64,000 nt of DNA from Phalacrocorax aristotelis. Lineage: Eukaryota; Chordata; Aves; Suliformes; Phalacrocoracidae. Below the pieces are notes generated by a model that made no database searches, was not told the DNA's origin, and saw only the letters and a program-made list of their open reading frames with translations. Numbering within the stretch: the stretch's first letter is position 1; every line of letters begins with the position of its first letter. Location of the stretch: the NCBI RefSeq assembly GCF_949628215.1, contig NW_027441236.1:310001-374000 (forward strand). Reading direction: 5' to 3'. The translations under genes and the position numbers were made by a program. This document shows positions 5,731-64,000 of the stretch, in pieces.

Positions 5731-5768
5731 CGCTCCAGGAGCCAGGCGACGGACGGTCCGTTCCCTGC

Positions 5769-21618: not shown

Positions 21619-21649
21619 GATGGGGGTGTAACGGGGGGTCCCTCCCCAA

Positions 21650-26172: not shown

Positions 26173-26389
26173 CCTTACCCATAAGCCGTCAACCTCATCC
26201 TCCCAATCATTGAGCTCTCTACAACCGAAACACTACCTAACGTACAGAGCCACCCCACCACATCTCCTTCCTTGCCTAACCCTTCGTAAGAGATTAGAGC
26301 CATCCATCGCAGCACTCGAATTGTACGAGGCATCCCACCGCATCTGGTGAGAAACCGTACTAGGAGCAGCTAAAGTCACTTGGTTTATT

Positions 26390-27015: not shown

Positions 27016-27019
27016 ATTC

Positions 27020-30990: not shown

Positions 30991-31079
30991 AGTTTCTTTA
31001 AGAAAAGAAGAGCAATACAAGTGTATAGTTAATATCAATAGACTTCTGTAAAACCCTGTGTAGGCTTGTGCAGAGCCAA

Positions 31080-31848: not shown

Positions 31849-34821
31849 GGTGAGCGGTGACGGGTGGGCTGAAGCGTAGCGATTCGTCCTGAGGGGTCGT
31901 GTTGCAGGTGGTTGCGAGCAACGTGCGTTTGGCTCTTGCAGGTGGCGGGCGAGCCTCAAGACGGCAACCGGATCTGATGGAGGCCGGGCAGGTGAGCTGT
32001 CGAGGAAAAGGTGCGTGTCTGAGATGTCTGAGATGGGGGGTGGGGGGGTGGTGTTTGTGCGGGTATCCTGAGACTCCCGCAGCACCCGAGCGGGTCCTTT
32101 TTTGCTTGGGTTCTTGCAGGTGCCGCACGCAGGCTTCGGAGGGGAGACGCCGCGTGCCGACGAGAGGTCCGAGAGGTGAGGGGCTTGAAGGCCAGGCGGC
32201 TGCTTGAGAGCAAGGTGTCGTACGGCCACTCAGTTGAAGCGTTTGTCTCTGGTTTTGCAGGTTGTGCGCCGGCTGCCTTTGGGCCTGGATGCGCGTTTGA
32301 GGTGAGCTGGGTCGCAGAGGGGAGGGGCGCGGGGCTGGTGTGGTTCGTTCTTCCTTTTTTGGCGGAGCGACGGTAACTTTGTGTGCCCTGTGGTATCTCT
32401 AGGGGCCGCAGGGGATGGCGTTCGTCCTCGTCCGGAACGGGCACGGAGCAGCCGGGCGCGCGTGAGGTGGGGGGCGTTGCGGGGGTGGGTCCTTGTGGAG
32501 TGATGGGATGCCGGCTGACAGGGCTGCTGTGTGTGTATTGTTGTTGTTTTTGTTTAGGTGATGAAAAGGCACCTGGCCCGTGGAGGACCGATGCAGTGGG
32601 CTGACCGTGCGCTTGTTCTTCTGAAGGATGGGTGGACTGAGACTCTCGGCCCCTTGAAAGCTAAGTTGAGGCAACGGTGCTGGGGAAGGGGTTGGGGGAG
32701 GCAGGGGTTTTAAGGATGGTGCAGCGGAGCGGGCTGTCCGGGAAGCGGTCCCCTTTGAGAGCAGGGAAAAGGAGTGGGTTCCTCTTCAATGTGACGGGAA
32801 CGTGTGCCGGGCAGGGCGGTTCCAGGCTGTGTGCGTTATTGTGCAGTGTGTGTGTTTCGTGTTGGGTGTCTCCGACCTTCCTCGGGTCTCGGTTGCTGTC
32901 TTTGTTCTTTAGGAGCCAGGCAGGTGCCTCGGCAGCGTTAGTAGGGCCCGGCGAGGCCCTAGTCGTGGGCTCGGCGCCCGTCGGGCGCTTCTCTTTTGGC
33001 GTCGCAAGCTTCGGGCGTGGATCGTTTTGGCGTCTCGGACGGTCGTCTTGGGCGGCGTCGTTCCCGGCTGCGTGAGCAGCGCCGCTCTGTCGCTGTGAGT
33101 TTTTTGGGACTGGCGTTTCTTCCTTGCATCCTTAGGCGGTTAGGTCTTGAAGCTGGGCTGCTTGCACGTCCGTCGTCTCGGTTGTGAGAGGAAGCTCTTG
33201 TCACGGGCCGCGAAGCTGTCGGCGTGCTCTGGCGTTGCCGTAGGGCCTGCCGACGTCACCGTCGGGGTCCCGCAGGCGGTCTTGCCGGACGGGGGGTTTC
33301 CGTCTGGGTGTCGTCGTTCTCTCCGAGAGCTGCCTCTCATCCTTCGGGGCGCGTGGCCTGTAGCGTTCTGTGTAGCGTTGTTCTGTGTTTGTCTTGGAGC
33401 CGCCCTGCCCGGGGATGTAGAGTCAGGGCAAGGCGGGTGGTGCTGGCATCTCGGGATGCGCCCAGGCTGTGGCGGGGGTGGGGGGGAAGGAATTTTGCAG
33501 CCGTCTTGGATCGACTGGCTGTTGTCGGTGGGTGAGGGAAGTAATTCCTGTTGGGTTTTGTGGGCCCCCAGGGAACAACCGTAGGTGTCTGGGGGAGGGA
33601 GCTAGAGCCTTAGCTGAGCGGGTAGCGTGTCAAGGGTGTTCTGGCTTGTCTGTGTGCTGGGCTTACTGTTTGATGTATTGTGCTGATGTTTAAGAGCCGC
33701 CCTAGTTGGGCTCTCGAGGGGTGTTCCTACGTGCGATCGAGACCTGCGTCGTGGTTCAGCTGTCGCTGTGCATGCAGGTGACGTGTTTGGCATCGGTTTG
33801 GCAGGTGCCGAGGGAGGAGTCGTGCAGGGTGATGGAGGACGGCGCTGTAAGCAGGTGAGTTGGTGTGCGGTGTATCTGGAGGGAAGATGTGGCTGTTGGC
33901 TCTATGAGCCCGTTGTGGTAATTTTTCTTTGTGGACGCATGCGAGGAGCCGAGCGGGATCTGGGCACCGGAGGGGTGCCCAGGCACAGGGTGAGCGGTGA
34001 CGGGTGGGCTGAAGCGTAGCGATTCGTCCTGAGGGGTCGCGTTGCAGGTGGTTGCGAGCAATGTGCGTTTGGCTCTTGCAGGTGGCGGGCGAGCCTCAAG
34101 ACGGCAACCGGATCTGATGGAGGCCGGGCAGGTGAGCTGTCGAGGAAAAGGTGCGTGTCTGAGATGGGGGGTGGGGGGGTGTTTGTGCGGGTATCCTGAG
34201 ACTCCCGCAGCACCCGAGCGGGTCCTTTTTTGCTTGGGTTCTTGCAGGTGCCGCACGCAGGCTTCGGAGGGGAGACGCCGCGTGCCGACGAGAGGTCCGA
34301 GAGGTGAGGGGCTTGAAGGCCAGGCGGCTGTTTGAGAGCAAGGTGTCGTACGGCCACTCAGTTGAAGCGTTTGTCTCTGGTTTTGCAGGTTGTGCGCCGG
34401 CTGCCTTTGGGCCTGGATGCGCGTTTGAGGTGAGCTGGGTCGCAGAGGGGAGGGGCGCGGGGCTGGTGTGGTTCGTTCTTCCTTTTTTGGCGGAGCGACG
34501 GTAACTTTGTGTGCCCTGTGGTATCTCTAGGGGCCGCAGGGGATGGCGTTCGTCCTCGTCCGGAACGGGCACGGAGCAGCCGGGTGAGCGGAGCAGCCGG
34601 GCGCGCGTGAGGTGGGGGGCGTTGCCGGGGTGGGTCCTTGTGGAGTGATGGGATGCCGGCTGACAGGGCTGCTGTGTGTGTATTGTTGTTGTTTTTGTTT
34701 AGGTGATGAAAAGGCACCTGGCCCGTGGAGGACCGATGCAGTGGGCTGACCGTGCGCTTGTTCTTCTGAAGGATGGGTGGACTGAGACTCTCGGCCCCTT
34801 GAAAGCTAAGTTGAGGCAACG
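31849..34821 (+). repeat. First array segment: edge piece plus unit 1
   Basis: 31,849-32,676 is the first partial unit. It starts at GGTGAGCGGTGACGGG, equivalent to 36,134 in a complete unit. Unlike all later units it lacks a 17-bp duplication (TGAGCGGAGCAGCCGGG) after CACGGAGCAGCCGGG near 32,455, and its G-run is broken (GGGGGGGTGGTG). Unit 1 (32,677-34,821) carries the GCTGCTTGC variant. Edge units differing from the interior is usual where unequal exchange homogenises the middle. Confidence 0.85.
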
Positions 34822-35057
34822 GTGCTGGGGAAGGGGTTGGGGGAGGCAGGGGTTTTAAGGATGGTGCAGCGGAGCGGGCTGTCCGGGAAGCGGTCCCCTT
34901 TGAGAGCAGGGAAAAGGAGCGGGTTCCTCTTCAATGTGACGGGAACGTGTGCCGGGCAGGGCGGTTCCAGGCTGTGTGCGTTATTGTGCAGTGTGTGTGT
35001 TTCGTGTTGGGTGTCTCCGACCTTCCTCGGGTCTCGGTTGCTGTCTTTGTTCTTTAG

Positions 35058-36848
35058 GAGCCAGGCAGGTGCCTCGGCAGCGTTAGTAGGGCCCGGCGAG
35101 GCCCTAGTCGTGGGCTCGGCGCCCGTCGGGCGCTTCTCTTTTGGCGTCGCAAGCTTCGGGCGTGGATCGTTTTGGCGTCTCGGACGGTCGTCTTGGGCGG
35201 CGTCGTTCCCGGCTGCGTGAGCAGCGCCGCTCTGTCGCTGTGAGTTTTTTGGGACTGGCGTTTCTTCCTTGCATCCTTAGGCGGTTAGGTCTTGAAGCTG
35301 GGCTGGTTGCACGTCCGTCGTCCCGGTTGTGAGAGGAAGCTCTTGTCACGGGCCGCGAAGCTGTCGGCGTGCTCTGGCGTTGCCGTAGGGCCTGCCGACG
35401 TCACCGTCGGGGTCCCGCAGGCGGTCTTGCCGGACGGGGGGTTTCCGTCTGGGTGTCGTCGTTCTCTCCGAGAGCTGCCTCTCATCCTTCGGGGCGCGTG
35501 GCCTGTAGCGTTCTGTGTAGCGTTGTTCTGTGTTTGTCTTGGAGCCGCCCTGCCCGGGGATGTAGAGTCAGGGCAAGGCGGGTGGTGCTGGCATCTCGGG
35601 ATGCGCCCAGGCTGTGGCGGGGGTGGGGGGGAAGGAATTTTGCAGCCGTCTTGGATCGACTGGCTGTTGTCGGTGGGTGAGGGAAGTAATTCCTGTTGGG
35701 TTTTGTGGGCCCCCAGGGAACAACCGTAGGTGTCTGGGGGAGGGAGCTAGAGCCTTAGCTGAGCGGGTAGCGTGTCAAGGGTGTTCTGGCTTGTCTGTGT
35801 GCTGGGCTTACTGTTTGATGTATTGTGCTGATGTTTAAGAGCCGCCCTAGTTGGGCTCTCGAGGGGTGTTCCTACGTGCGATCGAGACCTGCGTCGTGGT
35901 TCAGCTGTCGCTGTGCATGCAGGTGACGTGTTTGGCATCGGTTTGGCAGGTGCCGAGGGAGGAGTCGTGCAGGGTGATGGAGGACGGCGCTGTAAGCAGG
36001 TGAGTTGGTGTGCGGTGTATCTGGAGGGAAGATGTGGCTGTTGGCTCTATGAGCCCGTTGTGGTAATTTTTCTTTGTGGACGCATGCGAGGAGCCGAGCG
36101 GGATCTGGGCACCGGAGGGGTGCCCAGGCACAGGGTGAGCGGTGACGGGTGGGCTGAAGCGTAGCGATTCGTCCTGAGGGGTCGCGTTGCAGGTGGTTGC
36201 GAGCAATGTGCGTTTGGCTCTTGCAGGTGGCGGGCGAGCCTCAAGACGGCAACCGGATCTGATGGAGGCCGGGCAGGTGAGCTGTCGAGGAAAAGGTGCG
36301 TGTCTGAGATGGGGGGTGGGGGGGTGTTTGTGCGGGTATCCTGAGACTCCCGCAGCACCCGAGCGGGTCCTTTTTTGCTTGGGTTCTTGCAGGTGCCGCA
36401 CGCAGGCTTCGGAGGGGAGACGCCGCGTGCCGACGAGAGGTCCGAGAGGTGAGGGGCTTGAAGGCCAGGCGGCTGTTTGAGAGCAAGGTGTCGTACGGCC
36501 ACTCAGTTGAAGCGTTTGTCTCTGGTTTTGCAGGTTGTGCGCCGGCTGCCTTTGGGCCTGGATGCGCGTTTGAGGTGAGCTGGGTCGCAGAGGGGAGGGG
36601 CGCGGGGCTGGTGTGGTTCGTTCTTCCTTTTTTGGCGGAGCGACGGTAACTTTGTGTGCCCTGTGGTATCTCTAGGGGCCGCAGGGGATGGCGTTCGTCC
36701 TCGTCCGGAACGGGCACGGAGCAGCCGGGTGAGCGGAGCAGCCGGGCGCGCGTGAGGTGGGGGGCGTTGCCGGGGTGGGTCCTTGTGGAGTGATGGGATG
36801 CCGGCTGACAGGGCTGCTGTGTGTGTATTGTTGTTGTTTTTGTTTAGG
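35058..36848 (+). other. Exon-like cassette of the array unit (unit 2 as example)
   Basis: Segments bounded by acceptor- and donor-like sites on the + strand are: 35,058-35,239 (182 nt; TTGTTCTTTAG before, GTGAGT after), A 35,950-35,999 (50 nt; GTTTGGCAG, GTGAGT), B 36,227-36,276 (50 nt; GCTCTTGCAG, GTGAGC), C 36,393-36,448 (56 nt; GGTTCTTGCAG, GTGAGG), D 36,534-36,574 (41 nt; TGGTTTTGCAG, GTGAGC), E 36,676-36,728 (53 nt; GGTATCTCTAG, GTGAGC) and F from 36,848 (TTTTTGTTTAG; no clear donor). Gaps between A-F are 85-227 bp. Every unit repeats this. Splicing is inferred. All bounded segments listed are 2 mod 3 in length, so they are not frame-neutral if coding. Confidence 0.6.
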
Positions 36849-38464
36849 TGATGAAAAGGCACCTGGCCCGTGGAGGACCGATGCAGTGGGCTGACCGTGC
36901 GCTTGTTCTTCTGAAGGATGGGTGGACTGAGACTCTCGGCCCCTTGAAAGCTAAGTTGAGGCAACGGTGCTGGGGAAGGGGTTGGGGGAGGCAGGGGTTT
37001 TAAGGATGGTGCAGCGGAGCGGGCTGTCCGGGAAGCGGTCCCCTTTGAGAGCAGGGAAAAGGAGCGGGTTCCTCTTCAATGTGACGGGAACGTGTGCCGG
37101 GCAGGGCGGTTCCAGGCTGTGTGCGTTATTGTGCAGTGTGTGTGTTTCGTGTTGGGTGTCTCCGACCTTCCTCGGGTCTCGGTTGCTGTCTTTGTTCTTT
37201 AGGAGCCAGGCAGGTGCCTCGGCAGCGTTAGTAGGGCCCGGCGAGGCCCTAGTCGTGGGCTCGGCGCCCGTCGGGCGCTTCTCTTTTGGCGTCGCAAGCT
37301 TCGGGCGTGGATCGTTTTGGCGTCTCGGACGGTCGTCTTGGGCGGCGTCGTTCCCGGCTGCGTGAGCAGCGCCGCTCTGTCGCTGTGAGTTTTTTGGGAC
37401 TGGCGTTTCTTCCTTGCATCCTTAGGCGGTTAGGTCTTGAAGCTGGGCTGGTTGCACGTCCGTCGTCCCGGTTGTGAGAGGAAGCTCTTGTCACGGGCCG
37501 CGAAGCTGTCGGCGTGCTCTGGCGTTGCCGTAGGGCCTGCCGACGTCACCGTCGGGGTCCCGCAGGCGGTCTTGCCGGACGGGGGGTTTCCGTCTGGGTG
37601 TCGTCGTTCTCTCCGAGAGCTGCCTCTCATCCTTCGGGGCGCGTGGCCTGTAGCGTTCTGTGTAGCGTTGTTCTGTGTTTGTCTTGGAGCCGCCCTGCCC
37701 GGGGATGTAGAGTCAGGGCAAGGCGGGTGGTGCTGGCATCTCGGGATGCGCCCAGGCTGTGGCGGGGGTGGGGGGGAAGGAATTTTGCAGCCGTCTTGGA
37801 TCGACTGGCTGTTGTCGGTGGGTGAGGGAAGTAATTCCTGTTGGGTTTTGTGGGCCCCCAGGGAACAACCGTAGGTGTCTGGGGGAGGGAGCTAGAGCCT
37901 TAGCTGAGCGGGTAGCGTGTCAAGGGTGTTCTGGCTTGTCTGTGTGCTGGGCTTACTGTTTGATGTATTGTGCTGATGTTTAAGAGCCGCCCTAGTTGGG
38001 CTCTCGAGGGGTGTTCCTACGTGCGATCGAGACCTGCGTCGTGGTTCAGCTGTCGCTGTGCATGCAGGTGACGTGTTTGGCATCGGTTTGGCAGGTGCCG
38101 AGGGAGGAGTCGTGCAGGGTGATGGAGGACGGCGCTGTAAGCAGGTGAGTTGGTGTGCGGTGTATCTGGAGGGAAGATGTGGCTGTTGGCTCTATGAGCC
38201 CGTTGTGGTAATTTTTCTTTGTGGACGCATGCGAGGAGCCGAGCGGGATCTGGGCACCGGAGGGGTGCCCAGGCACAGGGTGAGCGGTGACGGGTGGGCT
38301 GAAGCGTAGCGATTCGTCCTGAGGGGTCGCGTTGCAGGTGGTTGCGAGCAACGTGCGTTTGGCTCTTGCAGGTGGCGGGCGAGCCTCAAGACGGCAAGCG
38401 GATCTGATGGAGGCCGGGCAGGTGAGCTGTCGAGGAAAAGGTGCGTGTCTGAGATGTCTGAGAT

Positions 38465-38482
38465 GGGGGGTGGGGGGGGGGG
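38465..38482 (+). repeat. Variable G-run in the array unit (example)
   Basis: Each unit has GGGGGGT followed by a second G-run. The second run is 7 in short units, 9 in several later units (followed by TGTGTTTG), 10 near 40,631 and 11 here, near 44,932 and near 47,091. The final unit has GGGGGGGCGG near 62,203. With nearby GGG and GGGT groups the + strand could form a G-quadruplex in DNA or RNA. Length could also be affected by assembly error in homopolymers. Confidence 0.7.
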
Positions 38483-41282
38483 TGTTTGTGCGGGTATCCT
38501 GAGACTCCCGCAGCACCCGAGCGGGTCCTTTTTTGCTTGGGTTCTTGCAGGTGCCGCACGCAGGCTTCGGAGGGGAGACGCCGCGTGCCGACGAGAGGTC
38601 CGAGAGGTGAGGGGCTTGAAGGCCAGGCGGCTGTTTGAGAGCAAGGTGTCGTACGGCCACTCAGTTGAAGCGTTTGTCTCTGGTTTTGCAGGTTGTGCGC
38701 CGGCTGCCTTTGGGCCTGGATGCGCGTTTGAGGTGAGCTGGGTCGCAGAGGGGAGGGGCGCGGGGCTGGTGTGGTTCGTTCTTCCTTTTTTGGCGGAGCG
38801 ACGGTAACTTTGTGTGCCCTGTGGTATCTCTAGGGGCCGCAGGGGATGGCGTTCGTCCTCGTCCGGAACGGGCACGGAGCAGCCGGGTGAGCGGAGCAGC
38901 CGGGCGCGCGTGAGGTGGGGGGCGTTGCGGGGGTGGGTCCTTGTGGAGTGATGGGATGCCGGCTGACAGGGCTGCTGTGTGTGTATTGTTGTTGTTTTTG
39001 TTTAGGTGATGAAAAGGCACCTGGCCCGTGGAGGACCGATGCAGTGGGCTGACCGTGCGCTTGTTCTTCTGAAGGATGGGTGGACTGAGACTCTCGGCCC
39101 CTTGAAAGCTAAGTTGAGGCAACGGTGCTGGGGAAGGGGTTGGGGGAGGCAGGGGTTTTAAGGATGGTGCAGCGGAGCGGGCTGTCCGGGAAGCGGTCCC
39201 CTTTGAGAGCAGGGAAAAGGAGCGGGTTCCTCTTCAATGTGACGGGAACGTGTGCCGGGCAGGGCGGTTCCAGGCTGTGTGCGTTATTGTGCAGTGTGTG
39301 TGTTTCGTGTTGGGTGTCTCCGACCTTCCTCGGGTCTCGGTTGCTGTCTTTGTTCTTTAGGAGCCAGGCAGGTGCCTCGGCAGCGTTAGTAGGGCCCGGC
39401 GAGGCCCTAGTCGTGGGCTCGGCGCCCGTCGGGCGCTTCTCTTTTGGCGTCGCAAGCTTCGGGCGTGGATCGTTTTGGCGTCTCGGACGGTTGTCTTGGG
39501 CGGCGTCGTTCCCGGCTGCGTGAGCAGCGCCGCTCTGTCGCTGTGAGTTTTTTGGGACTGGCGTTTCTTCCTTGCATCCTTAGGCGGTTAGGTCTTGAAG
39601 CTGGGCTGCTTGCACGTCCGTCGTCTCGGTTGTGAGAGGAAGCTCTTGTCACGGGCCGCGAAGCTGTCGGCGTGCTCTGGCGTTGCCGTAGGGCCTGCCG
39701 ACGTCACCGTCGGGGTCCCGCAGGCGGTCTTGCCGGACGGGGGGTTTCCGTCTGGGTGTCGTCGTTCTCTCCGAGAGCTGCCTCTCATCCTTCGGGGCGC
39801 GTGGCCTGTAGCGTTCTGTGTAGCGTTGTTCTGTGTTTGTCTTGGAGCCGCCCTGCCCGGGGATGTAGAGTCAGGGCAAGGCGGGTGGTGCTGGCATCTC
39901 GGGATGCGCCCAGGCTGTGGCGGGGGTGGGGGGGAAGGAATTTTGCAGCCGTCTTGGATCGACTGGCTGTTGTCGGTGGGTGAGGGAAGTAATTCCTGTT
40001 GGGTTTTGTGGGCCCCCAGGGAACAACCGTAGGTGTCTGGGGGAGGGAGCTAGAGCCTTAGCTGAGCGGGTAGCGTGTCAAGGGTGTTCTGGCTTGTCTG
40101 TGTGCTGGGCTTACTGTTTGATGTATTGTGCTGATGTTTAAGAGCCGCCCTAGTTGGGCTCTCGAGGGGTGTTCCTACGTGCGATCGAGACCTGCGTCGT
40201 GGTTCAGCTGTCGCTGTGCATGCAGGTGACGTGTTTGGCATCGGTTTGGCAGGTGCCGAGGGAGGAGTCGTGCAGGGTGATGGAGGACGGCGCTGTAAGC
40301 AGGTGAGTTGGTGTGCGGTGTATCTGGAGGGAAGATGTGGCTGTTGGCTCTATGAGCCCGTTGTGGTAATTTTTCTTTGTGGACGCATGCGAGGAGCCGA
40401 GCGGGATCTGGGCACCGGAGGGGTGCCCAGGCACAGGGTGAGCGGTGACGGGTGGGCTGAAGCGTAGCGATTCGTCCTGAGGGGTCGCGTTGCAGGTGGT
40501 TGCGAGCAACGTGCGTTTGGCTCTTGCAGGTGGCGGGCGAGCCTCAAGACGGCAAGCGGATCTGATGGAGGCCGGGCAGGTGAGCTGTCGAGGAAAAGGT
40601 GCGTGTCTGAGATGTCTGAGATGGGGGGTGGGGGGGGGGATGTTTGTGCGGGTATCCTGAGACTCCCGCAGCACCCGAGCGGGTCCTTTTTTGCTTGGGT
40701 TCTTGCAGGTGCCGCACGCAGGCTTCGGAGGGGAGACGCCGCGTGCCGACGAGAGGTCCGAGAGGTGAGGGGCTTGAAGGCCAGGCGGCTGTTTGAGAGC
40801 AAGGTGTCGTACGGCCACTCAGTTGAAGCGTTTGTCTCTGGTTTTGCAGGTTGTGCGCCGGCTGCCTTTGGGCCTGGATGCGCGTTTGAGGTGAGCTGGG
40901 TCGCAGAGGGGAGGGGCGCGGGGCTGGTGTGGTTCGTTCTTCCTTTTTTGGCGGAGCGACGGTAACTTTGTGTGCCCTGTGGTATCTCTAGGGGCCGCAG
41001 GGGATGGCGTTCGTCCTCGTCCGGAACGGGCACGGAGCAGCCGGGTGAGCGGAGCAGCCGGGCGCGCGTGAGGTGGGGGGCGTTGCGGGGGTGGGTCCTT
41101 GTGGAGTGATGGGATGCCGGCTGACAGGGCTGCTGTGTGTGTATTGTTGTTGTTTTTGTTTAGGTGATGAAAAGGCACCTGGCCCGTGGAGGACCGATGC
41201 AGTGGGCTGACCGTGCGCTTGTTCTTCTGAAGGATGGGTGGACTGAGACTCTCGGCCCCTTGAAAGCTAAGTTGAGGCAACG

Positions 41283-44200
41283 GTGCTGGGGAAGGGGTTG
41301 GGGGAGGCAGGGGTTTTAAGGATGGTGCAGCGGAGCGGGCTGTCCGGGAAGCGGTCCCCTTTGAGAGCAGGGAAAAGGAGCGGGTTCCTCTTCAATGTGA
41401 CGGGAACGTGTGCCGGGCAGGGCGGTTCCAGGCTGTGTGCGTTATTGTGCAGTGTGTGTGTTTCGTGTTGGGTGTCTCCGACCTTCCTCGGGTCTCGGTT
41501 GCTGTCTTTGTTCTTTAGGAGCCAGGCAGGTGCCTCGGCAGCGTTAGTAGGGCCCGGCGAGGCCCTAGTCGTGGGCTCGGCGCCCGTCGGGCGCTTCTCT
41601 TTTGGCGTCGCAAGCTTCGGGCGTGGATCGTTTTGGCGTCTCGGACGGTCGTCTTGGGCGGCGTCGTTCCCGGCTGCGTGAGCAGCGCCGCTCTGTCGCT
41701 GTGAGTTTTTTGGGACTGGCGTTTCTTCCTTGCATCCTTAGGCGGTTAGGTCTTGAAGCTGGGCTGGTTGCACGTCCGTCGTCCCGGTTGTGAGAGGAAG
41801 CTCTTGTCACGGGCCGCGAAGCTGTCGGCGTGCTCTGGCGTTGCCGTAGGGCCTGCCGACGTCACCGTCGGGGTCCCGCAGGCGGTCTTGCCGGACGGGG
41901 GGTTTCCGTCTGGGTGTCGTCGTTCTCTCCGAGAGCTGCCTCTCATCCTTCGGGGCGCGTGGCCTGTAGCGTTCTGTGTAGCGTTGTTCTGTGTTTGTCT
42001 TGGAGCCGCCCTGCCCGGGGATGTAGAGTCAGGGCAAGGCGGGTGGTGCTGGCATCTAGGGATGCGCCCAGGCTGTGGCGTGGGTGGGGGGGAAGGAATT
42101 TTGCAGCCGTCTTGGATCGACTGGCTGTTGTCGGTGGGTGAGGGAAGTAATTCCTGTTGGGTTTTGTGGGCCCCCAGGGAACAACCGTAGGTGTCTGGGG
42201 GAGGGAGCTAGAGCCTTAGCTGAGCGGGTAGCGTGTCAAGGGTGTTCTGGCTTGTCTGTGTGCTGGGCTTACTGTTTGATGTATTGTGCTGATGTTTAAG
42301 AGCCGCCCTAGTTGGGCTCTCGAGGGGTGTTCCTACGTGCGATCGAGACCTGCGTCGTGGTTCAGCTGTCGCTGTGCATGCAGGTGACGTGTTTGGCATC
42401 GGTTTGGCAGGTGCCGAGGGAGGAGTCGTGCAGGGTGATGGAGGACGGCGCTGTAAGCAGGTGAGTTGGTGTGCGGTGTATCTGGAGGGAAGATGTGGCT
42501 GTTGGCTCTATGAGCCCGTTGTGGTAATTTTTCTTTGTGGACGCATGCGAGGAGCCGAGCGGGATCTGGGCACCGGAGGGGTGCCCAGGCACAGGGTGAG
42601 CGGTGACGGGTGGGCTGAAGCGTAGCGATTCGTCCTGAGGGGTCGCGTTGCAGGTGGTTGCGAGCAATGTGCGTTTGGCTCTTGCAGGTGGCGGGCGAGC
42701 CTCAAGACGGCAACCGGATCTGATGGAGGCCGGGCAGGTGAGCTGTCGAGGAAAAGGTGCGTGTCTGAGATGGGGGGTGGGGGGGTGTTTGTGCGGGTAT
42801 CCTGAGACTCCCGCAGCACCCGAGCGGGTCCTTTTTTGCTTGGGTTCTTGCAGGTGCCGCACGCAGGCTTCGGAGGGGAGACGCCGCGTGCCGACGAGAG
42901 GTCCGAGAGGTGAGGGGCTTGAAGGCCAGGCGGCTGTTTGAGAGCAAGGTGTCGTACGGCCACTCAGTTGAAGCGTTTGTCTCTGGTTTTGCAGGTTGTG
43001 CGCCGGCTGCCTTTGGGCCTGGATGCGCGTTTGAGGTGAGCTGGGTCGCAGAGGGGAGGGGCGCGGGGCTGGTGTGGTTCGTTCTTCCTTTTTTGGCGGA
43101 GCGACGGTAACTTTGTGTGCCCTGTGGTATCTCTAGGGGCCGCAGGGGATGGCGTTCGTCCTCGTCCGGAACGGGCACGGAGCAGCCGGGTGAGCGGAGC
43201 AGCCGGGCGCGCGTGAGGTGGGGGGCGTTGCCGGGGTGGGTCCTTGTGGAGTGATGGGATGCCGGCTGACAGGGCTGCTGTGTGTGTATTGTTGTTGTTT
43301 TTGTTTAGGTGATGAAAAGGCACCTGGCCCGTGGAGGACCGATGCAGTGGGCTGACCGTGCGCTTGTTCTTCTGAAGGATGGGTGGACTGAGACTCTCGG
43401 CCCCTTGAAAGCTAAGTTGAGGCAACGGTGCTGGGGAAGGGGTTGGGGGAGGCAGGGGTTTTAAGGATGGTGCAGCGGAGCGGGCTGTCCGGGAAGCGGT
43501 CCCCTTTGAGAGCAGGGAAAAGGAGCGGGTTCCTCTTCAATGTGACGGGAACGTGTGCCGGGCAGGGCGGTTCCAGGCTGTGTGCGTTATTGTGCAGTGT
43601 GTGTGTTTCGTGTTGGGTGTCTCCGACCTTCCTCGGGTCTCGGTTGCTGTCTTTGTTCTTTAGGAGCCAGGCAGGTGCCTCGGCAGCGTTAGTAGGGCCC
43701 GGCGAGGCCCTAGTCGTGGGCTCGGCGCCCGTCGGGCGCTTCTCTTTTGGCGTCGCAAGCTTCGGGCGTGGATCGTTTTGGCGTCTCGGACGGTCGTCTT
43801 GGGCGGCGTCGTTCCCGGCTGCGTGAGCAGCGCCGCTCTGTCGCTGTGAGTTTTTTGGGACTGGCGTTTCTTCCTTGCATCCTTAGGCGGTTAGGTCTTG
43901 AAGCTGGGCTGGTTGCACGTCCGTCGTCCCGGTTGTGAGAGGAAGCTCTTGTCACGGGCCGCGAAGCTGTCGGCGTGCTCTGGCGTTGCCGTAGGGCCTG
44001 CCGACGTCACCGTCGGGGTCCCGCAGGCGGTCTTGCCGGACGGGGGGTTTCCGTCTGGGTGTCGTCGTTCTCTCCGAGAGCTGCCTCTCATCCTTCGGGG
44101 CGCGTGGCCTGTAGCGTTCTGTGTAGCGTTGTTCTGTGTTTGTCTTGGAGCCGCCCTGCCCGGGGATGTAGAGTCAGGGCAAGGCGGGTGGTGCTGGCAT

Positions 44201-47200: not shown

Positions 47201-47743
47201 CGCGTGCCGACGAGAGGTCCGAGAGGTGAGGGGCTTGAAGGCCAGGCGGCTGTTTGAGAGCAAGGTGTCGTACGGCCACTCAGTTGAAGCGTTTGTCTCT
47301 GGTTTTGCAGGTTGTGCGCCGGCTGCCTTTGGGCCTGGATGCGCGTTTGAGGTGAGCTGGGTCGCAGAGGGGAGGGGCGCGGGGCTGGTGTGGTTCGTTC
47401 TTCCTTTTTTGGCGGAGCGACGGTAACTTTGTGTGCCCTGTGGTATCTCTAGGGGCCGCAGGGGATGGCGTTCGTCCTCGTCCGGAACGGGCACGGAGCA
47501 GCCGGGTGAGCGGAGCAGCCGGGCGCGCGTGAGGTGGGGGGCGTTGCCGGGGTGGGTCCTTGTGGAGTGATGGGATGCCGGCTGACAGGGCTGCTGTGTG
47601 TGTATTGTTGTTGTTTTTGTTTAGGTGATGAAAAGGCACCTGGCCCGTGGAGGACCGATGCAGTGGGCTGACCGTGCGCTTGTTCTTCTGAAGGATGGGT
47701 GGACTGAGACTCTCGGCCCCTTGAAAGCTAAGTTGAGGCAACG
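41283..47743 (+). repeat. Trimeric higher-order repeat, copy 2 (6,461 bp)
   Basis: The spacing (2,145, 2,158, 2,158) and the GCTGGTTGC, GCTGGTTGC, GCTGCTTGC order match the first trimer. Private differences include CATCTAGGG for CATCTCGGG near 42,055, GGGCTGGGCGCC near 45,880 and GCGTTTTTTCC near 46,023, all in single units. The trimer was therefore duplicated as a block and then picked up point changes. Confidence 0.8.
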
Positions 47744-53700: not shown

Positions 53701-56700
53701 GGTGAGGGGCTTGAAGGCCAGGCGGCTGTTTGAGAGCAAGGTGTCGTACGGCCACTCAGTTGAAGCGTTTGTCTCTGGTTTTGCAGGTTGTGCGCCGGCT
53801 GCCTTTGGGCCTGGATGCGCGTTTGAGGTGAGCTGGGTCGCAGAGGGGAGGGGCGCGGGGCTGGTGTGGTTCGTTCTTCCTTTTTTGGCGGAGCGACGGT
53901 AACTTTGTGTGCCCTGTGGTATCTCTAGGGGCCGCAGGGGATGGCGTTCGTCCTCGTCCGGAACGGGCACGGAGCAGCCGGGTGAGCGGAGCAGCCGGGC
54001 GCGCGTGAGGTGGGGGGCGTTGCGGGGGTGGGTCCTTGTGGAGTGATGGGATGCCGGCTGACAGGGCTGCTGTGTGTGTATTGTTGTTGTTTTTGTTTAG
54101 GTGATGAAAAGGCACCTGGCCCGTGGAGGACCGATGCAGTGGGCTGACCGTGCGCTTGTTCTTCTGAAGGATGGGTGGACTGAGACTCTCGGCCCCTTGA
54201 AAGCTAAGTTGAGGCAACGGTGCTGGGGAAGGGGTTGGGGGAGGCAGGGGTTTTAAGGATGGTGCAGCGGAGCGGGCTGTCCGGGAAGCGGTCCCCTTTG
54301 AGAGCAGGGAAAAGGAGCGGGTTCCTCTTCAATGTGACGGGAACGTGTGCCGGGCAGGGCGGTTCCAGGCTGTGTGCGTTATTGTGCAGTGTGTGTGTTT
54401 CGTGTTGGGTGTCTCCGACCTTCCTCGGGTCTCGGTTGCTCTCTTTGTTCTTTAGGAGCCAGGCAGGTGCCTCGGCAGCGTTAGTAGGGCCCGGCGAGGC
54501 CCTAGTCGTGGGCTCGGCGCCCGTCGGGCGCTTCTCTTTTGGCGTCGCAAGCTTCGGGCGTGGATCGTTTTGGCGTCTCGGACGGTCGTCTTGGGCGGCG
54601 TCGTTCCCGGCTGCGTGAGCAGCGCCGCTCTGTCGCTGTGAGTTTTTTTGGGACTGGCGTTTCTTCCTTGCATCCTTAGGCGGTTAGGTCTTGAAGCTGG
54701 GCTGCTTGCACGTCCGTCGTCTCGGTTGTGAGAGGAAGCTCTTGTCACGGGCCGCGAAGCTGTCGGCGTGCTCTGGCGTTGCCGTAGGGCCTGCCGACGT
54801 CACCGTCGGGGTCCCGCAGGCGGTCTTGCCGGACGGGGGGTTTCCGTCTGGGTGTCGTCGTTCTCTCCGAGAGCTGCCTCTCATCCTTCGGGGCGCGTGG
54901 CCTGTAGCGTTCTGTGTAGCGTTGTTCTGTGTTTGTCTTGGAGCCGCCCTGCCCGGGGATGTAGAGTCAGGGCAAGGCGGGTGGTGCTGGCATCTCGGGA
55001 TGCGCCCAGGCTGTGGCGGGGGTGGGGGGGAAGGAATTTTGCGGCCGTCTTGGATCGACTGGCTGTTGTCGGTGGGTGAGGGAAGTAATTCCTGTTGGGT
55101 TTTGTGGGCCCCCAGGGAACAACCGTAGGTGTCTGGGGGAGGGAGCTAGAGCCTTAGCTGAGCGGGTAGCGTGTCAAGGGTGTTCTGGCTTGTCTGTGTG
55201 CTGGGCTTACTGTTTGATGTATTGTGCTGATGTTTAAGAGCCGCCCTAGTTGGGCTCTCGAGGGGTGTTCCTACGTGCGATCGAGACCTGCGTCGTGGTT
55301 CAGCTGTCGCTGTGCATGCAGGTGACGTGTTTGGCATCGGTTTGGCAGGTGCCGAGGGAGGAGTCGTGCAGGGTGATGGAGGACGGCGCTGTAAGCAGGT
55401 GAGTTGGTGTGCGGTGTATCTGGAGGGAAGATGTGGCTGTTGGCTCTATGAGCCCGTTGTGGTAATTTTTCTTTGTGGACGCATGCGAGGAGCCGAGCGG
55501 GATCTGGGCACCGGAGGGGTGCCCAGGCACAGGGTGAGCGGTGACGGGTGGGCTGAAGCGTAGCGATTCGTCCTGAGGGGTCGCGTTGCAGGTGGTTGCG
55601 AGCAACGTGCGTTTGGCTCTTGCAGGTGGCGGGCGAGCCTCAAGACGGCAAGCGGATCTGATGGAGGCCGGGCAGGTGAGCTGTCGAGGAAAAGGTGCGT
55701 GTCTGAGATGTCTGAGATGGGGGGTGGGGGGGGGTGTGTTTGTGCGGGTATCCTGAGACTCCCGCAGCACCCGAGCGGGTCCTTTTTTGCTTGGGTTCTT
55801 GCAGGTGCCGCACGCAGGCTTCGGAGGGGAGACGCCGCGTGCCGACGAGAGGTCCGAGAGGTGAGGGGCTTGAAGGCCAGGCGGCTGTTTGAGAGCAAGG
55901 TGTCGTACGGCCACTCAGTTGAAGCGTTTGTCTCTGGTTTTGCAGGTTGTGCGCCGGCTGCCTTTGGGCCTGGATGCGCGTTTGAGGTGAGCTGGGTCGC
56001 AGAGGGGAGGGGCGCGGGGCTGGTGTGGTTCGTTCTTCCTTTTTTGGCGGAGCGACGGTAACTTTGTGTGCCCTGTGGTATCTCTAGGGGCCGCAGGGGA
56101 TGGCGTTCGTCCTCGTCCGGAACGGGCACGGAGCAGCCGGGTGAGCGGAGCAGCCGGGCGCGCGTGAGGTGGGGGGCGTTGCGGGGGTGGGTCCTTGTGG
56201 AGTGATGGGATGCCGGCTGACAGGGCTGCTGTGTGTGTATTGTTGTTGTTTTTGTTTAGGTGATGAAAAGGCACCTGGCCCGTGGAGGACCGATGCAGTG
56301 GGCTGACCGTGCGCTTGTTCTTCTGAAGGATGGGTGGACTGAGACTCTCGGCCCCTTGAAAGCTAAGTTGAGGCAACGGTGCTGGGGAAGGGGTTGGGGG
56401 AGGCAGGGGTTTTAAGGATGGTGCAGCGGAGCGGGCTGTCCGGGAAGCGGTCCCCTTTGAGAGCAGGGAAAAGGAGCGGGTTCCTCTTCAATGTGACGGG
56501 AACGTGTGCCGGGCAGGGCGGTTCCAGGCTGTGTGCGTTATTGTGCAGTGTGTGTGTTTCGTGTTGGGTGTCTCCGACCTTCCTCGGGTCTCGGTTGCTG
56601 TCTTTGTTCTTTAGGAGCCAGGCAGGTGCCTCGGCAGCGTTAGTAGGGCCCGGCGAGGCCCTAGTCGTGGGCTCGGCGCCCGTCGGGCGCTTCTCTTTTG

Positions 56701-59700
56701 GCGTCGCAAGCTTCGGGCGTGGATCGTTTTGGCGTCTCGGACGGTCGTCTTGGGCGGCGTCGTTCCCGGCTGCGTGAGCAGCGCCGCTCTGTCGCTGTGA
56801 GTTTTTTTGGGACTGGCGTTTCTTCCTTGCATCCTTAGGCGGTTAGGTCTTGAAGCTGGGCTGCTTGCACGTCCGTCGTCCCGGTTGTGAGAGGAAGCTC
56901 TTGTCACGGGCCGCGAAGCTGTCGGCGTGCTCTGGCGTTGCCGTAGGGCCTGCCGACGTCACCGTCGGGGTCCCGCAGGCGGTCTTGCCGGACGGGGGGT
57001 TTCCGTCTGGGTGTCGTCGTTCTCTCCGAGAGCTGCCTCTCATCCTTCGGGGCGCGTGGCCTGTAGCGTTCTGTGTAGCGTTGTTCTGTGTTTGTCTTGG
57101 AGCCGCCCTGCCCGGGGATGTAGAGTCAGGGCAAGGCGGGTGGTGCTGGCATCTCGGGATGCGCCCAGGCTGTGGCGGGGGTGGGGGGGAAGGAATTTTG
57201 CAGCCGTCTTGGATCGACTGGCTGTTGTCGGTGGGTGAGGGAAGTAATTCCTGTTGGGTTTTGTGGGCCCCCAGGGAACAACCGTAGGTGTCTGGGGGAG
57301 GGAGCTAGAGCCTTAGCTGAGCGGGTAGCGTGTCAAGGGTGTTCTGGCTTGTCTGTGTGCTGGGCTTACTGTTTGATGTATTGTGCTGATGTTTAAGAGC
57401 CGCCCTAGTTGGGCTCTCGAGGGGTGTTCCTACGTGCGATCGAGACCTGCGTCGTGGTTCAGCTGTCGCTGTGCATGCAGGTGACGTGTTTGGCATCGGT
57501 TTGGCAGGTGCCGAGGGAGGAGTCGTGCAGGGTGATGGAGGACGGCGCTGTAAGCAGGTGAGTTGGTGTGCGGTGTATCTGGAGGGAAGATGTGGCTGTT
57601 GGCTCTATGAGCCCGTTGTGGTAATTTTTCTTTGTGGACGCATGCGAGGAGCCGAGCGGGATCTGGGCACCGGAGGGGTGCCCAGGCACAGGGTGAGCGG
57701 TGACGGGTGGGCTGAAGCGTAGCGATTCGTCCTGAGGGGTCGCGTTGCAGGTGGTTGCGAGCAACGTGCGTTTGGCTCTTGCAGGTGGCGGGCGAGCCTC
57801 AAGACGGCAAGCGGATCTGATGGAGGCCGGGCAGGTGAGCTGTCGAGGAAAAGGTGCGTGTCTGAGATGTCTGAGATGGGGGGTGGGGGGGGGGGTGTTT
57901 GTGCGGGTATCCTGAGACTCCCGCAGCACCCGAGCGGGTCCTTTTTTGCTTGGGTTCTTGCAGGTGCCGCACGCAGGCTTCGGAGGGGAGACGCCGCGTG
58001 CCGACGAGAGGTCCGAGAGGTGAGGGGCTTGAAGGCCAGGCGGCTGTTTGAGAGCAAGGTGTCGTACGGCCACTCAGTTGAAGCGTTTGTCTCTGGTTTT
58101 GCAGGTTGTGCGCCGGCTGCCTTTGGGCCTGGATGCGCGTTTGAGGTGAGCTGGGTCGCAGAGGGGAGGGGCGCGGGGCTGGTGTGGTTCGTTCTTCCTT
58201 TTTTGGCGGAGCGACGGTAACTTTGTGTGCCCTGTGGTATCTCTAGGGGCCGCAGGGGATGGCGTTCGTCCTCGTCCGGAACGGGCACGGAGCAGCCGGG
58301 TGAGCGGAGCAGCCGGGCGCGCGTGAGGTGGGGGGCGTTGCCGGGGTGGGTCCTTGTGGAGTGATGGGATGCCGGCTGACAGGGCTGCTGTGTGTGTATT
58401 GTTGTTGTTTTTGTTTAGGTGATGAAAAGGCACCTGGCCCGTGGAGGACCGATGCAGTGGGCTGACCGTGCGCTTGTTCTTCTGAAGGATGGGTGGACTG
58501 AGACTCTCGGCCCCTTGAAAGCTAAGTTGAGGCAACGGTGCTGGGGAAGGGGTTGGGGGAGGCAGGGGTTTTAAGGATGGTGCAGCGGAGCGGGCTGTCC
58601 GGGAAGCGGTCCCCTTTGAGAGCAGGGAAAAGGAGCGGGTTCCTCTTCAATGTGACGGGAACGTGTGCCGGGCAGGGCGGTTCCAGGCTGTGTGCGTTAT
58701 TGTGCAGTGTGTGTGTTTCGTGTTGGGTGTCTCCGACCTTCCTCGGGTCTCGGTTGCTCTCTTTGTTCTTTAGGAGCCAGGCAGGTGCCTCGGCAGCGTT
58801 AGTAGGGCCCGGCGAGGCCCTAGTCGTGGGCTCGGCGCCCGTCGGGCGCTTCTCTTTTGGCGTCGCAAGCTTCGGGCGTGGATCGTTTTGGCGTCTCGGA
58901 CGGTCGTCTTGGGCGGCGTCGTTCCCGGCTGCGTGAGCAGCGCCGCTCTGTCGCTGTGAGTTTTTTGGGACTGGCGTTTCTTCCTTGCATCCTTAGGCGG
59001 TTAGGTCTTGAAGCTGGGCTGCTTGCACGTCCGTCGTCCCGGTTGTGAGAGGAAGCTCTTGTCACGGGCCGCGAAGCTGTCGGCGTGCTCTGGCGTTGCC
59101 GTAGGGCCTGCCGACGTCACCGTCGGGGTCCCGCAGGCGGTCTTGCCGGACGGGGGGTTTCCGTCTGGGTGTCGTCGTTCTCTCCGAGAGCTGCCTCTCA
59201 TCCTTCGGGGCGCGTGGCCTGTAGCGTTCTGTGTAGCGTTGTTCTGTGTTTGTCTTGGAGCCGCCCTGCCCGGGGATGTAGAGTCAGGGCAAGGCGGGTG
59301 GTGCTGGCATCTCGGGATGCGCCCAGGCTGTGGCGGGGGTGGGGGGGAAGGAATTTTGCAGCCGTCTTGGATCGACTGGCTGTTGTCGGTGGGTGAGGGA
59401 AGTAATTCCTGTTGGGTTTTGTGGGCCCCCAGGGAACAACCGTAGGTGTCTGGGGGAGGGAGCTAGAGCCTTAGCTGAGCGGGTAGCGTGTCAAGGGTGT
59501 TCTGGCTTGTCTGTGTGCTGGGCTTACTGTTTGATGTATTGTGCTGATGTTTAAGAGCCGCCCTAGTTGGGCTCTCGAGGGGTGTTCCTACGTGCGATCG
59601 AGACCTGCGTCGTGGTTCAGCTGTCGCTGTGCATGCAGGTGACGTGTTTGGCATCGGTTTGGCAGGTGCCGAGGGAGGAGTCGTGCAGGGTGATGGAGGA

Positions 59701-62700
59701 CGGCGCTGTAAGCAGGTGAGTTGGTGTGCGGTGTATCTGGAGGGAAGATGTGGCTGTTGGCTCTATGAGCCCGTTGTGGTAATTTTTCTTTGTGGACGCA
59801 TGCGAGGAGCCGAGCGGGATCTGGGCACCGGAGGGGTGCCCAGGCACAGGGTGAGCGGTGACGGGTGGGCTGAAGCGTAGCGATTCGTCCTGAGGGGTCG
59901 CGTTGCAGGTGGTTGCGAGCAACGTGCGTTTGGCTCTTGCAGGTGGCGGGCGAGCCTCAAGACGGCAAGCGGATCTGATGGAGGCCGGGCAGGTGAGCTG
60001 TCGAGGAAAAGGTGCGTGTCTGAGATGTCTGAGATGGGGGGTGGGGGGGGGTGTGTTTGTGCGGGTATCCTGAGACTCCCGCAGCACCCGAGCGGGTCCT
60101 TTTTTGCTTGGGTTCTTGCAGGTGCCGCACGCAGGCTTCGGAGGGGAGACGCCGCGTGCCGACGAGAGGTCCGAGAGGTGAGGGGCTTGAAGGCCAGGCG
60201 GCTGTTTGAGAGCAAGGTGTCGTACGGCCACTCAGTTGAAGCGTTTGTCTCTGGTTTTGCAGGTTGTGCGCCGGCTGCCTTTGGGCCTGGATGCGCGTTT
60301 GAGGTGAGCTGGGTCGCAGAGGGGAGGGGCGCGGGGCTGGTGTGGTTCGTTCTTCCTTTTTTGGCGGAGCGACGGTAACTTTGTGTGCCCTGTGGTATCT
60401 CTAGGGGCCGCAGGGGATGGCGTTCGTCCTCGTCCGGAACGGGCACGGAGCAGCCGGGTGAGCGGAGCAGCCGGGCGCGCGTGAGGTGGGGGGCGTTGCG
60501 GGGGTGGGTCCTTGTGGAGTGATGGGATGCCGGCTGACAGGGCTGCTGTGTGTGTATTGTTGTTGTTTTTGTTTAGGTGATGAAAAGGCACCTGGCCCGT
60601 GGAGGACCGATGCAGTGGGCTGACCGTGCGCTTGTTCTTCTGAAGGATGGGTGGACTGAGACTCTCGGCCCCTTGAAAGCTAAGTTGAGGCAACGGTGCT
60701 GGGGAAGGGGTTGGGGGAGGCAGGGGTTTTAAGGATGGTGCAGCGGAGCGGGCTGTCCGGGAAGCGGTCCCCTTTGAGAGCAGGGAAAAGGAGCGGGTTC
60801 CTCTTCAATGTGACGGGAACGTGTGCCGGGCAGGGCGGTTCCAGGCTGTGTGCGTTATTGTGCAGTGTGTGTGTTTCGTGTTGGGTGTCTCCGACCTTCC
60901 TCGGGTCTCGGTTGCTGTCTTTGTTCTTTAGGAGCCAGGCAGGTGCCTCGGCAGCGTTAGTAGGGCCCGGCGAGGCCCTAGTCGTGGGCTCGGCGCCCGT
61001 CGGGCGCTTCTCTTTTGGCGTCGCAAGCTTCGGGCGTGGATCGTTTTGGCGTCTCGGACGGTCGTCTTGGGCGGCGTCGTTCCCGGCTGCGTGAGCAGCG
61101 CCGCTCTGTCGCTGTGAGTTTTTTGGGACTGGCGTTTCTTCCTTGCATCCTTAGGCGGTTAGGTCTTGAAGCTGGGCTGCTTGCACGTCCGTCGTCCCGG
61201 TTGTGAGAGGAAGCTCTTGTCACGGGCCGCGAAGCTGTCGGCGTGCTCTGGCGTTGCCGTAGGGCCTGCCGACGTCACCGTCGGGGTCCCGCAGGCGGTC
61301 TTGCCGGACGGGGGGTTTCCGTCTGGGTGTCGTCGTTCTCTCCGAGAGCTGCCTCTCATCCTTCGGGGCGCGTGGCCTGTAGCGTTCTGTGTAGCGTTGT
61401 TCTGTGTTTGTCTTGGAGCCGCCCTGCCCGGGGATGTAGAGTCAGGGCAAGGCGGGTGGTGCTGGCATCTCGGGATGCGCCCAGGCTGTGGCGGGGGTGG
61501 GGGGGAAGGAATTTTGCGGCCGTCTTGGATCGACTGGCTGTTGTCGGTGGGTGAGGGAAGTAATTCCTGTTGGGTTTTGTGGGCCCCCAGGGAACAACCG
61601 TAGGTGTCTGGGGGAGGGAGCTAGAGCCTTAGCTGAGCGGGTAGCGTGTCAAGGGTGTTCTGGCTTGTCTGTGTGCTGGGCTTACTGTTTGATGTATTGT
61701 GCTGATGTTTAAGAGCCGCCCTAGTTGGGCTCTCGAGGGGTGTTCCTACGTGCGATCGAGACCTGCGTCGTGGTTCAGCTGTCGCTGTGCATGCAGGTGA
61801 CGTGTTTGGCATCGGTTTGGCAGGTGCCGAGGGAGGAGTCGTGCAGGGTGATGGAGGACGGCGCTGTAAGCAGGTGAGTTGGTGTGCGGTGTATCTGGAG
61901 GGAAGATGTGGCTGTTGGCTCTATGAGCCCGTTGTGGTAATTTTTCTTTGTGGACGCATGCGAGGAGCCGAGCGGGATCTGGGCACCGGAGGGGTGCCCA
62001 GGCACAGGGTGAGCGGTGACGGGTGGGCTGAAGCGTAGCGATTCGTCCTGAGGGGTCGCATTGCAGGTGGTTGCGAGCAACGTGCGTTTGGCTCTTGCAG
62101 GTGGCGGGCGAGCCTCAAGACGGCAAGCGGATCTGATGGAGGCCGGGCAGGTGAGCTGTCGAGGAAAAGGTGCGTGTCTGAGATGTCTGAGATGGGGGGT
62201 GGGGGGGCGGTGTGTTTGTGCGGGTATCCTGAGACTCCCGCAGCACCCGAGCGGGTCCTTTTTTGCTTGGGTTCTTGCAGGTGCCGCACGCAGGCTTCGG
62301 AGGGGAGACGCCGCGTGCCGACGAGAGGTCCGAGAGGTGAGGGGCTTGAAGGCCAGGCGGCTGTTTGAGAGCAAGGTGTCGTACGGCCACTCAGTTGAAG
62401 CGTTTGTCTCTGGTTTTGCAGGTTGTGCGCCGGCTGCCTTTGGGCCTGGATGCGCGTTTGAGGTGAGCTGGGTCGCAGAGGGGAGGGGCGCGGGGCTGGT
62501 GTGGTTCGTTCTTCCTTTTTTGGCGGAGCGACGGTAACTTTGTGTGCCCTGTGGTATCTCTAGGGGCCGCAGGGGATGGCGTTCGTCCTCGTCCGGAACG
62601 GGCACGGAGCAGCCGGGTGAGCGGAGCAGCCGGGCGCGCGTGAGGTGGGGGGCGTTGCGGGGGTGGGTCCTTGTGGAGTGATGGGATGCCGGCTGACAGG

Positions 62701-64000
62701 GCTGCTGTGTGTGTATTGTTGTTGTTTTTGTTTAGGTGATGAAAAGGCACCTGGCCCGTGGAGGACCGATGCAGTGGGCTGACCGTGCGCTTGTTCTTCT
62801 GAAGGATGGGTGGACTGAGACTCTCGGCCCCTTGAAAGCTAAGTTGAGGCAACGGTGCTGGGGAAGGGGTTGGGGGAGGCAGGGGTTTTAAGGATGGTGC
62901 AGCGGAGCGGGCTGTCCGGGAAGCGGTCCCCTTTGAGAGCAGGGAAAAGGAGCGGGTTCCTCTTCAATGTGACGGGAACGTGTGCCGGGCAGGGCGGTTC
63001 CAGGCTGTGTGCGTTATTGTGCAGTGTGTGTGTTTCGTGTTGGGTGTCTCCGACCTTCCTCGGGTCTCGGTTGCTCTCTTTGTTCTTTAGGAGCCAGGCA
63101 GGTGCCTCGGCAGCGTTAGTAGGGCCCGGCGAGGCCCTAGTCGTGGGCTCGGCGCCCGTCGGGCGCTTCTCTTTTGGCGTCGCAAGCTTCGGGCGTGGAT
63201 CGTTTTGGCGTCTCGGACGGTCGTCTTGGGCGGCGTCGTTCCCGGCTGCGTGAGCAGCGCCGCTCTGTCGCTGTGAGTTTTTTTGGGACTGGCGTTTCTT
63301 CCTTGCATCCTTAGGCGGTTAGGTCTTGAAGCTGGGCTGCTTGCACGTCCGTCGTCCCGGTTGTGAGAGGAAGCTCTTGTCACGGGCCGCGAAGCTGTCG
63401 GCGTGCTCTGGCGTTGCCGTAGGGCCTGCCGACGTCACCGTCGGGGTCCCGCAGGCGGTCTTGCCGGACGGGGGGTTTCCGTCTGGGTGTCGTCGTTCTC
63501 TCCGAGAGCTGCCTCTCATCCTTCGGGGCGCGTGGCCTGTAGCGTTCTGTGTAGCGTTGTTCTGTGTTTGTCTTGGAGCCGCCCTGCCCGGGGATGTAGA
63601 GTCAGGGCAAGGCGGGTGGTGCTGGCATCTCGGGATGCGCCCAGGCTGTGGCGGGGGTGGGGGGGAAGGAATTTTGCAGCCGTCTTGGATCGACTGGCTG
63701 TTGTCGGTGGGTGAGGGAAGTAATTCCTGTTGGGTTTTGTGGGCCCCCAGGGAACAACCGTAGGTGTCTGGGGGAGGGAGCTAGAGCCTTAGCTGAGCGG
63801 GTAGCGTGTCAAGGGTGTTCTGGCTTGTCTGTGTGCTGGGCTTACTGTTTGATGTATTGTGCTGATGTTTAAGAGCCGCCCTAGTTGGGCTCTCGAGGGG
63901 TGTTCCTACGTGCGATCGAGACCTGCGTCGTGGTTCAGCTGTCGCTGTGCATGCAGGTGACGTGTTTGGCATCGGTTTGGCAGGTGCCGAGGGAGGAGTC
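47744..64000 (+). repeat. Units 8-15: homogeneous monomeric part with mosaic variants
   Basis: All carry GCTGCTTGC and the 9-bp duplication. Four variable sites reassort between units: TTGCTCTCTTT or TTGCTGTCTTT, six or seven T after GTGAG, GTCGTCTCGG or GTCGTCCCGG, and TTTTGCAGCC or TTTTGCGGCC. Units 8 and 15 share one combination and units 9 and 11 another, while neighbours differ. This pattern suggests gene conversion or unequal exchange and not simple serial duplication. Confidence 0.78.

Follow-up and report, generated by a model that had tools for sequence, protein, structure and literature searches.

A subtelomeric macrosatellite of Phalacrocorax aristotelis with splice-competent-looking mini-exons, and its single-copy relative

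Analysis of a 64,000-nucleotide (nt) stretch of the Phalacrocorax aristotelis genome led to a long tandem array whose units carry sets of very small exon-like segments. The stretch (hereafter the window) covers bases 310001-374000 of contig NW_027441236.1, called C181 below, in an assembly of 1.279 Gb and 352 contigs (GCF_949628215.1). The array occupies 31849..64000 on the + strand, consists of 2,128-2,159-bp units with 62% GC and, beyond the window, reaches roughly base 509,568 of C181. Five mini-exons (A to E) follow each other in the unit, and a single copy of the same locus is found at the end of another contig. Judging from these comparisons, the array may be a subtelomeric macrosatellite that arose when the mini-exon portion of a spliced noncoding gene, originally present once, was amplified in tandem, a reading on which we stand evenly divided. 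Its transcription and splicing into a repeat-exon RNA appear plausible, and a role of such an RNA at the chromosome end is guesswork.

The periodicity of the array is clear. An earlier note on this DNA had counted at least 14 full periods of a 2.15-kb unit, and indeed the anchor at the exon-A donor recurs 14 times and four other anchors 15 times each in the window, spaced by 2,128-2,159 bp. Most units measure 2,145-2,159 bp, and the 13 whole units compared are 99.5-100% identical. With a kilobase unit and a long uninterrupted head-to-tail run of near-identical copies, the array is a macrosatellite. It was covered whole through 444 kb of C181 (374-444 kb lying past the window) and then at five sampled places, and, provided that nothing interrupts it, it comprises about 78 units. 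At 518,696 the scaffold terminates in + strand (TTAGGG)n, and two sampled stretches between the array end near 509,568 and the telomere are partly N. The array thus adjoins the telomere, and its mini-exons are oriented toward it. Concerning other contigs, a DNA search of the genome for relatives of the unit placed all 40 scored matches (of 1,100 candidates) on C181, C124 and C37; one single copy lies on contig C1. C124 bears the same module, with an array from 176,902 to about 299,287, and C37 bears it on the other strand, the array spanning the first 95,866 bases of that contig (both arrays sampled only). Their module flanks are 98.5-99.75% identical to those of C181; the three contigs could represent three chromosome ends or may partly be haplotypes, and more founder copies may exist elsewhere in the genome.

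The mini-exons were located in a reference unit, and their sites were scored in bits with splice matrices set up from general vertebrate frequencies. On the + strand, A lies at 35950..35999 (50 nt; acceptor 5.6, donor 12.5), B at 36227..36276 (50 nt; 8.5 and 11.2), C at 36393..36448 (56 nt; 10.8 and 10.2), D at 36534..36574 (41 nt; 12.6 and 10.2) and E at 36676..36728 (53 nt; 6.3 and 9.0, with an alternative donor at 36757). AG precedes and GT follows each of them, and the junctions proposed earlier (35999/36227, 36276/36393, 36448/36534 and 36574/36676) are all four exact. The gaps of 227, 116, 85 and 101 bp between A and E fall in the announced 85-227-bp range, and a further 119 bp separates E from the F acceptor. 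The five donors read GTGAGT, GTGAGC, GTGAGG, GTGAGC and GTGAGC, which agrees with the GTGAG(T/C/G) described before. The acceptors had been described as AGs preceded by pyrimidine tracts; each of the five exons has its AG, but the acceptor of A is weak and that of E modest. Of the six announced segments of 41-182 nt, five are good exons; the F/G segment (36848..37384, + strand; F acceptor at 36848 with 10.9 bits, G acceptor at 37203 with 11.3) is uncertain and has no good donor.

Donors better than those of shuffled sequence had been expected, and this was borne out against dinucleotide-preserving shuffles (300 for site counts, 400 for mini-exon counts). The + strand of one unit has five donors of at least 10 bits (shuffle mean 0.72) and five such acceptors (shuffle mean 0.40), neither count being matched by any of the 300 shuffles. 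The signals are also one-stranded, as had been claimed: the - strand has no donor, not even at 6 bits, and a single acceptor of at least 10 bits. When non-overlapping mini-exons with an acceptor of at least 6 and a donor of at least 8 bits are counted, the array unit has four on the + strand (shuffle mean 0.50; 0/400) and none on the - strand, and under two other threshold pairs its count was matched by 0 and 1 of 400 shuffles. Six chromosomal 4-kb pieces gave, over both strands, 0.5-1.2 mini-exons per 3 kb, with a maximum of four in any piece. As a genomic background for splice density, 10 other 4-kb pieces were scanned on both strands (80 kb; four of the ten belong to the upstream satellite of these loci). 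Per 2,145 bases, donors number 5 in the unit vs 0.59 in these pieces, acceptors 5 vs 2.63 and acceptor-donor pairs 2 vs 0.16, so that donors and pairs exceed the background more than acceptors do. In favour of accidental splice-like motifs in a satellite rich in G and T, the strand does have this composition, and acceptor density is only about double that elsewhere in the genome. Base composition as the source of the signals is nevertheless disfavoured by the dinucleotide shuffles and by the retention of all eight B-E sites in the C1 relative, which makes chance a highly improbable explanation.

This relative, which supplied the strongest evidence, is the complete locus in unexpanded form and lies where contig C1 (219 Mb) ends on the right (C1:219229501-219236223). 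It aligns in order with window positions 29651-30937 (93% identity) and 30939-31847 (92%), contains unit positions 143-1735 once, and continues with the copy called epsilon (a further diverged copy found at the distal array edge on C124 and C181) and the distal flank. The assembled right end of C1 stops in this flank without telomere repeats, which are present at its left end. From array to C1, the B-E acceptors change from 8.5 to 8.2, from 10.8 to 10.8, from 12.6 to 12.6 and from 6.3 to 6.6, and the donors remain at 11.2, 10.2, 10.2 and 9.0. Acceptors F, G and H and donor A2 are likewise retained, as is donor B2, two bases off its aligned place (9.5); donors E2 and G and acceptor F2 have lost strength or disappeared. 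At the proximal edge lies delta (30900..31848, + strand), a diverged, CpG-poor copy with 71% identity to the unit in aligned columns. Its A-type exon (31357-31414; acceptor 12.9, donor 8.3) retains both sites on C1 (12.9 and 8.6). The distal E and F sites score higher on C1 (9.8, 12.5 and 11.2) than on C124 (7.6, 10.9 and 6.9). In 3 kb of the C1 locus six mini-exons were counted (shuffle mean 0.98; 0/400), with none on the - strand, and the count was matched by 1/400 shuffles under each of the two other threshold pairs. Identity to C1 is 93-94% in the block 36134-36728 vs 82% over the rest of the unit, and B-E differ by 15 substitutions in 200 exon bases. The C1 copy may represent the older, pre-expansion state.

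Whether selection has kept the splice sites is a harder matter, and several observations weigh against a spliced product. Splice windows compared with the whole unit hold 5 mismatches to C1 vs 14.9 expected (P 0.001); within the 36134-36740 block they hold 5 vs 5.6 expected (P 0.50), and gene conversion or another function could maintain this conserved block. Exons are 92.5% and introns 94.0% identical to C1. The corresponding values for the older diverged copies are 78.1/73.5 for gamma, 71.7/70.3 for delta, 68.8/74.0 for beta and 76.2/78.2% for epsilon, so that exons seem not clearly better conserved than introns. Beta (13588-14066) and gamma (about 14070-15960) lie together at 13588..15960 on the + strand of the window, and a possible, very diverged copy, alpha, with weak alignment, lies at 11900..13120 on the same strand. 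When substitutions were permuted among columns of equal base and CpG class in beta, gamma, delta and epsilon, a homology-aware test, summed scores gave P 0.029 (for single copies, delta 0.03, gamma 0.17, beta 0.23, epsilon 0.60), and site retention under nine threshold and window settings gave P from <0.0005 to 0.17. A circular-shift test (15/32 sites retained vs 3.3) disregards homology and was not used. The homology-aware tests being weak to moderate, retention in older copies is suggestive only as a sign of selection, and neither gamma alone nor alpha-beta alone shows a significant mini-exon excess in any setting. Additionally, no donor of at least 5.5 bits follows from the F acceptor (36848) to 37385, which leaves F/G a poor exon; the 182-nt G segment 37203-37384, perhaps the announced sixth, has only a weak donor (5.7), which C1 does not preserve; and strict branch-point patterns precede F only.

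Inside the array selection is hidden, because the units are homogenised, and splice-site invariance there is no test of it. Among 63 units cut at the exact A-donor motif (46 from C181, 12 from C124 and 5 from C37, units differing at the motif being dropped), 52 single-nucleotide polymorphism (SNP) columns were found, none of them in the AG/GT of the B-E sites or in the AG of A; invariance of the A donor in this survey is an artefact of how the units were cut. The first array unit, 1 of 48 units of C181:341849-444000, lacks 17 bases that include the E donor (at 32442), and the same loss occurs in 1 of 9 units near the C124 array start. The array might be a silent satellite with splice sites inherited from its founder, only the single-copy locus, if any, being transcribed. 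The unit identity of 99.5-100% points to recent copying of the sites, with no selection in the array needed, and the C1 single copy does retain them. On the other side stands the observed-to-expected CpG ratio, about 0.9 in the array vs about 0.3-0.5 in the flank at 18-31 kb, which suggests an unmethylated state of the array in the germ line, although a young CpG-rich expansion fits it equally. We regard such a fossil as unlikely, though deserving serious weight. The + strand of the array has more G than C and more T than A (skews 0.30 and 0.33), the sign expected on the sense strand of germ-line transcription.

As for coding potential, one frame stays open through spliced A-F for 98 codons, and it is still open over B-E on C1. 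The substitutions of B-E vs C1 are spread 5/5/5 over the three codon positions, and Pfam gave no family at cut-off for eight peptides, six of them from the array. For these two reasons the product of the mini-exons is probably noncoding, and a coding gene was rejected despite the 98-codon frame. No Pfam family was obtained either for ten open frames of the window's left half. Known structured RNA families all stayed under their gathering scores in the window (a single match with E 0.4, well short of its cut-off, fell on the - strand of one unit), and relatives in viral and prokaryote collections gave 0 matches. The earlier note had proposed a long RNA spliced into a repetitive noncoding transcript. 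This proposal is partly supported. The noncoding nature appears probable, and the putative transcript would come from a splice-competent-looking, one-stranded locus with a C1 relative keeping the B-E sites.

Alternatively, every unit might be an independent short gene of several exons, driven by a promoter of its own, on the model of PRR20-like macrosatellites or DUX4. The units are CpG-rich, the 98-codon frame runs through A-F, and units of the PRR20 macrosatellite contain a three-exon gene (PMC3018141). Six array peptides without a Pfam family at cut-off and the absence of codon-position bias vs C1 speak against it, as does the lack of AATAAA, ATTAAA and eleven variant hexamers on the unit's + strand, which is weak evidence in an A-poor unit. 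Separate genes are, in our judgement, rather improbable. For the same A-poverty, the missing poly(A) signals were not accepted as proof of read-through.

Returning to amplification from a noncoding gene, the following course can be envisaged. A gene at chromosome ends would have existed before the array, comprising a first exon, exon A, a cluster of four tiny ones and, distally, a terminal exon, and its middle part would have been amplified at some chromosome ends into the macrosatellite. RNA polymerase II would start near 30.4-30.6 kb or in the CpG-rich units. A candidate promoter and first exon lie at 30380..30656 (+ strand), with TATATGAG near 30495 and a donor at 30657 (10.4 bits). On C1, 30380-30489 shows 1 mismatch in 110 aligned bases, and both the adjacent TATATGAG and the donor are retained. 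The polymerase would then read through many units toward the telomere, and the spliceosome would join A-B-C-D-E, unit after unit, which would be possible because each unit supplies ordered acceptors and donors and is without AATAAA. The RNA would end in the distal flank, with an F-type acceptor and then AATAAA, a hexamer that C1 and C124 alike carry about 0.65 kb past the distal F acceptor. The product would iterate 250 nt (A-E) and, with every unit transcribed, could reach about 19 kb. In its fullest form, a single polymerase pass would yield an RNA of up to ~19 kb with the 250-nt five-exon set ~78 times, acting at germ-line chromosome ends, with the single-copy ancestor retained on another chromosome; this whole chain we consider doubtful.

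Further features lie around the array. Window positions 10083-14066 and 29619-31459 are paralogous blocks with 63-74% identity, which implies that the locus was duplicated before array growth, and donor 30657 has a retained counterpart in the paralogue at 10722. In the distal flank of C124 (299670-301000) a duplication of ~550 bp, partly present in C181, makes AATAAA recur 549 bp apart. Every place sampled upstream (window 1-8638; C181:60001-64000, 150001-154000 and 280001-310000) contains another satellite, which is GC-rich and built of 3.06- and 5.1-kb units. Its 62-bp subrepeat holds GCATGCYGGGARNTGTAGT (8 matches at no more than 1 mismatch, 0 in 100 shuffles), which we take to be the reverse of the ZNF143/THAP11 motif. 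Between the two satellites, window 18000-31000 has a CpG observed-to-expected ratio of about 0.3-0.5, flanked by about 0.5-0.9 in the satellites, a contrast that suggests separate methylation histories. In the same part of the window, 24012-24304 has a 68% match near the start of contig C5 and is probably a dispersed repeat, and 27000-28500 is pyrimidine-rich with short degenerate internal repeats. Just before it, near 17.88-17.93 kb, lies what is presumably a CR1-like 3' end.

The chicken male hypermethylated (MHM) repeat is Z-linked, with units of about 2.2 kb defined as a BamHI repeat. The present array resembles it in unit size, as a CpG-rich tandem array in a bird and in its probably noncoding product, MHM giving a female-specific noncoding RNA (PMC1386693). 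The array nevertheless has no BamHI site (in the window BamHI cuts only at 2963 and 8121), and four primers from PMC1386693 match the window with 5-8 mismatches, their reversed controls with 5-9. MHM is placed on Zp near the centromere (PMC2375040), and the present locus lies at chromosome ends, including C1. We therefore rejected identity with MHM, and kinship with it is barely conceivable.

Closer likenesses are found among the macrosatellites SST1, PRR20, D4Z4/DUX4 and DXZ4, which share kilobase GC-rich units and tens of near-identical tandem copies. Specifically, SST1 has 2.4-2.5-kb units with 64% GC in 14-154 copies (PMC3018141), and DXZ4 is transcribed (PMC3081327). The present array differs in its five tiny exons per unit, the lack of a recognised protein, a presumed single-copy founder on another contig and the orientation toward a telomere a few kb off. 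Among birds, the PO41 repeat and the chicken Z-macrosatellite on lampbrush chromosomes are likewise tandem repeats near chromosome ends and have been reported as transcribed (PMC4301066, PMC7397634), and no description of their splicing was found in the accessible portions of these papers. HINT1W occurs as a 5.6-kb tandem array in the complete genome of the chicken (PMC9974502). PO41 has a 41-bp period, and no such period occurs among the 11 Tandem Repeats Finder (TRF) rows of the window. The long noncoding RNA (lncRNA) FIRRE also contains a repeated exonic segment; its repeats are inexact and lie inside one gene, whereas here whole exon-intron sets iterate as a near-identical satellite. Like the telomeric RNA TERRA, the array has its sense direction toward TTAGGG, with CpG-rich subtelomeric repeats upstream. 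Human TERRA promoters contain 61-29-37-bp repeats with NRF1 sites (PMC6600276), unlike the window, where no NRF1 site occurs at up to 1 mismatch. Since macrosatellites with a multi-exon gene in each unit, and subtelomeric repeats that are transcribed in birds, have been described (PMC3018141, PMC4301066, PMC7397634), the 'undescribed system' of the earlier note was too strong a term. A bird satellite described as both spliced and subtelomeric was not found in the partly available literature searched, with subscription journals mostly outside its scope, and novelty is accordingly unproven.

A satellite that coexists with a single-copy relative of its founder allows the conversion of a gene fragment into subtelomeric satellite DNA, and the fate of splicing in that process, to be studied directly. 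Should the RNA exist, vertebrate chromosome ends would possess an uncommon transcript of repeated exons, on which the action of subtelomeric RNA could be tested. If it is absent, the array would caution that a satellite may owe intact splice sites to inheritance alone.

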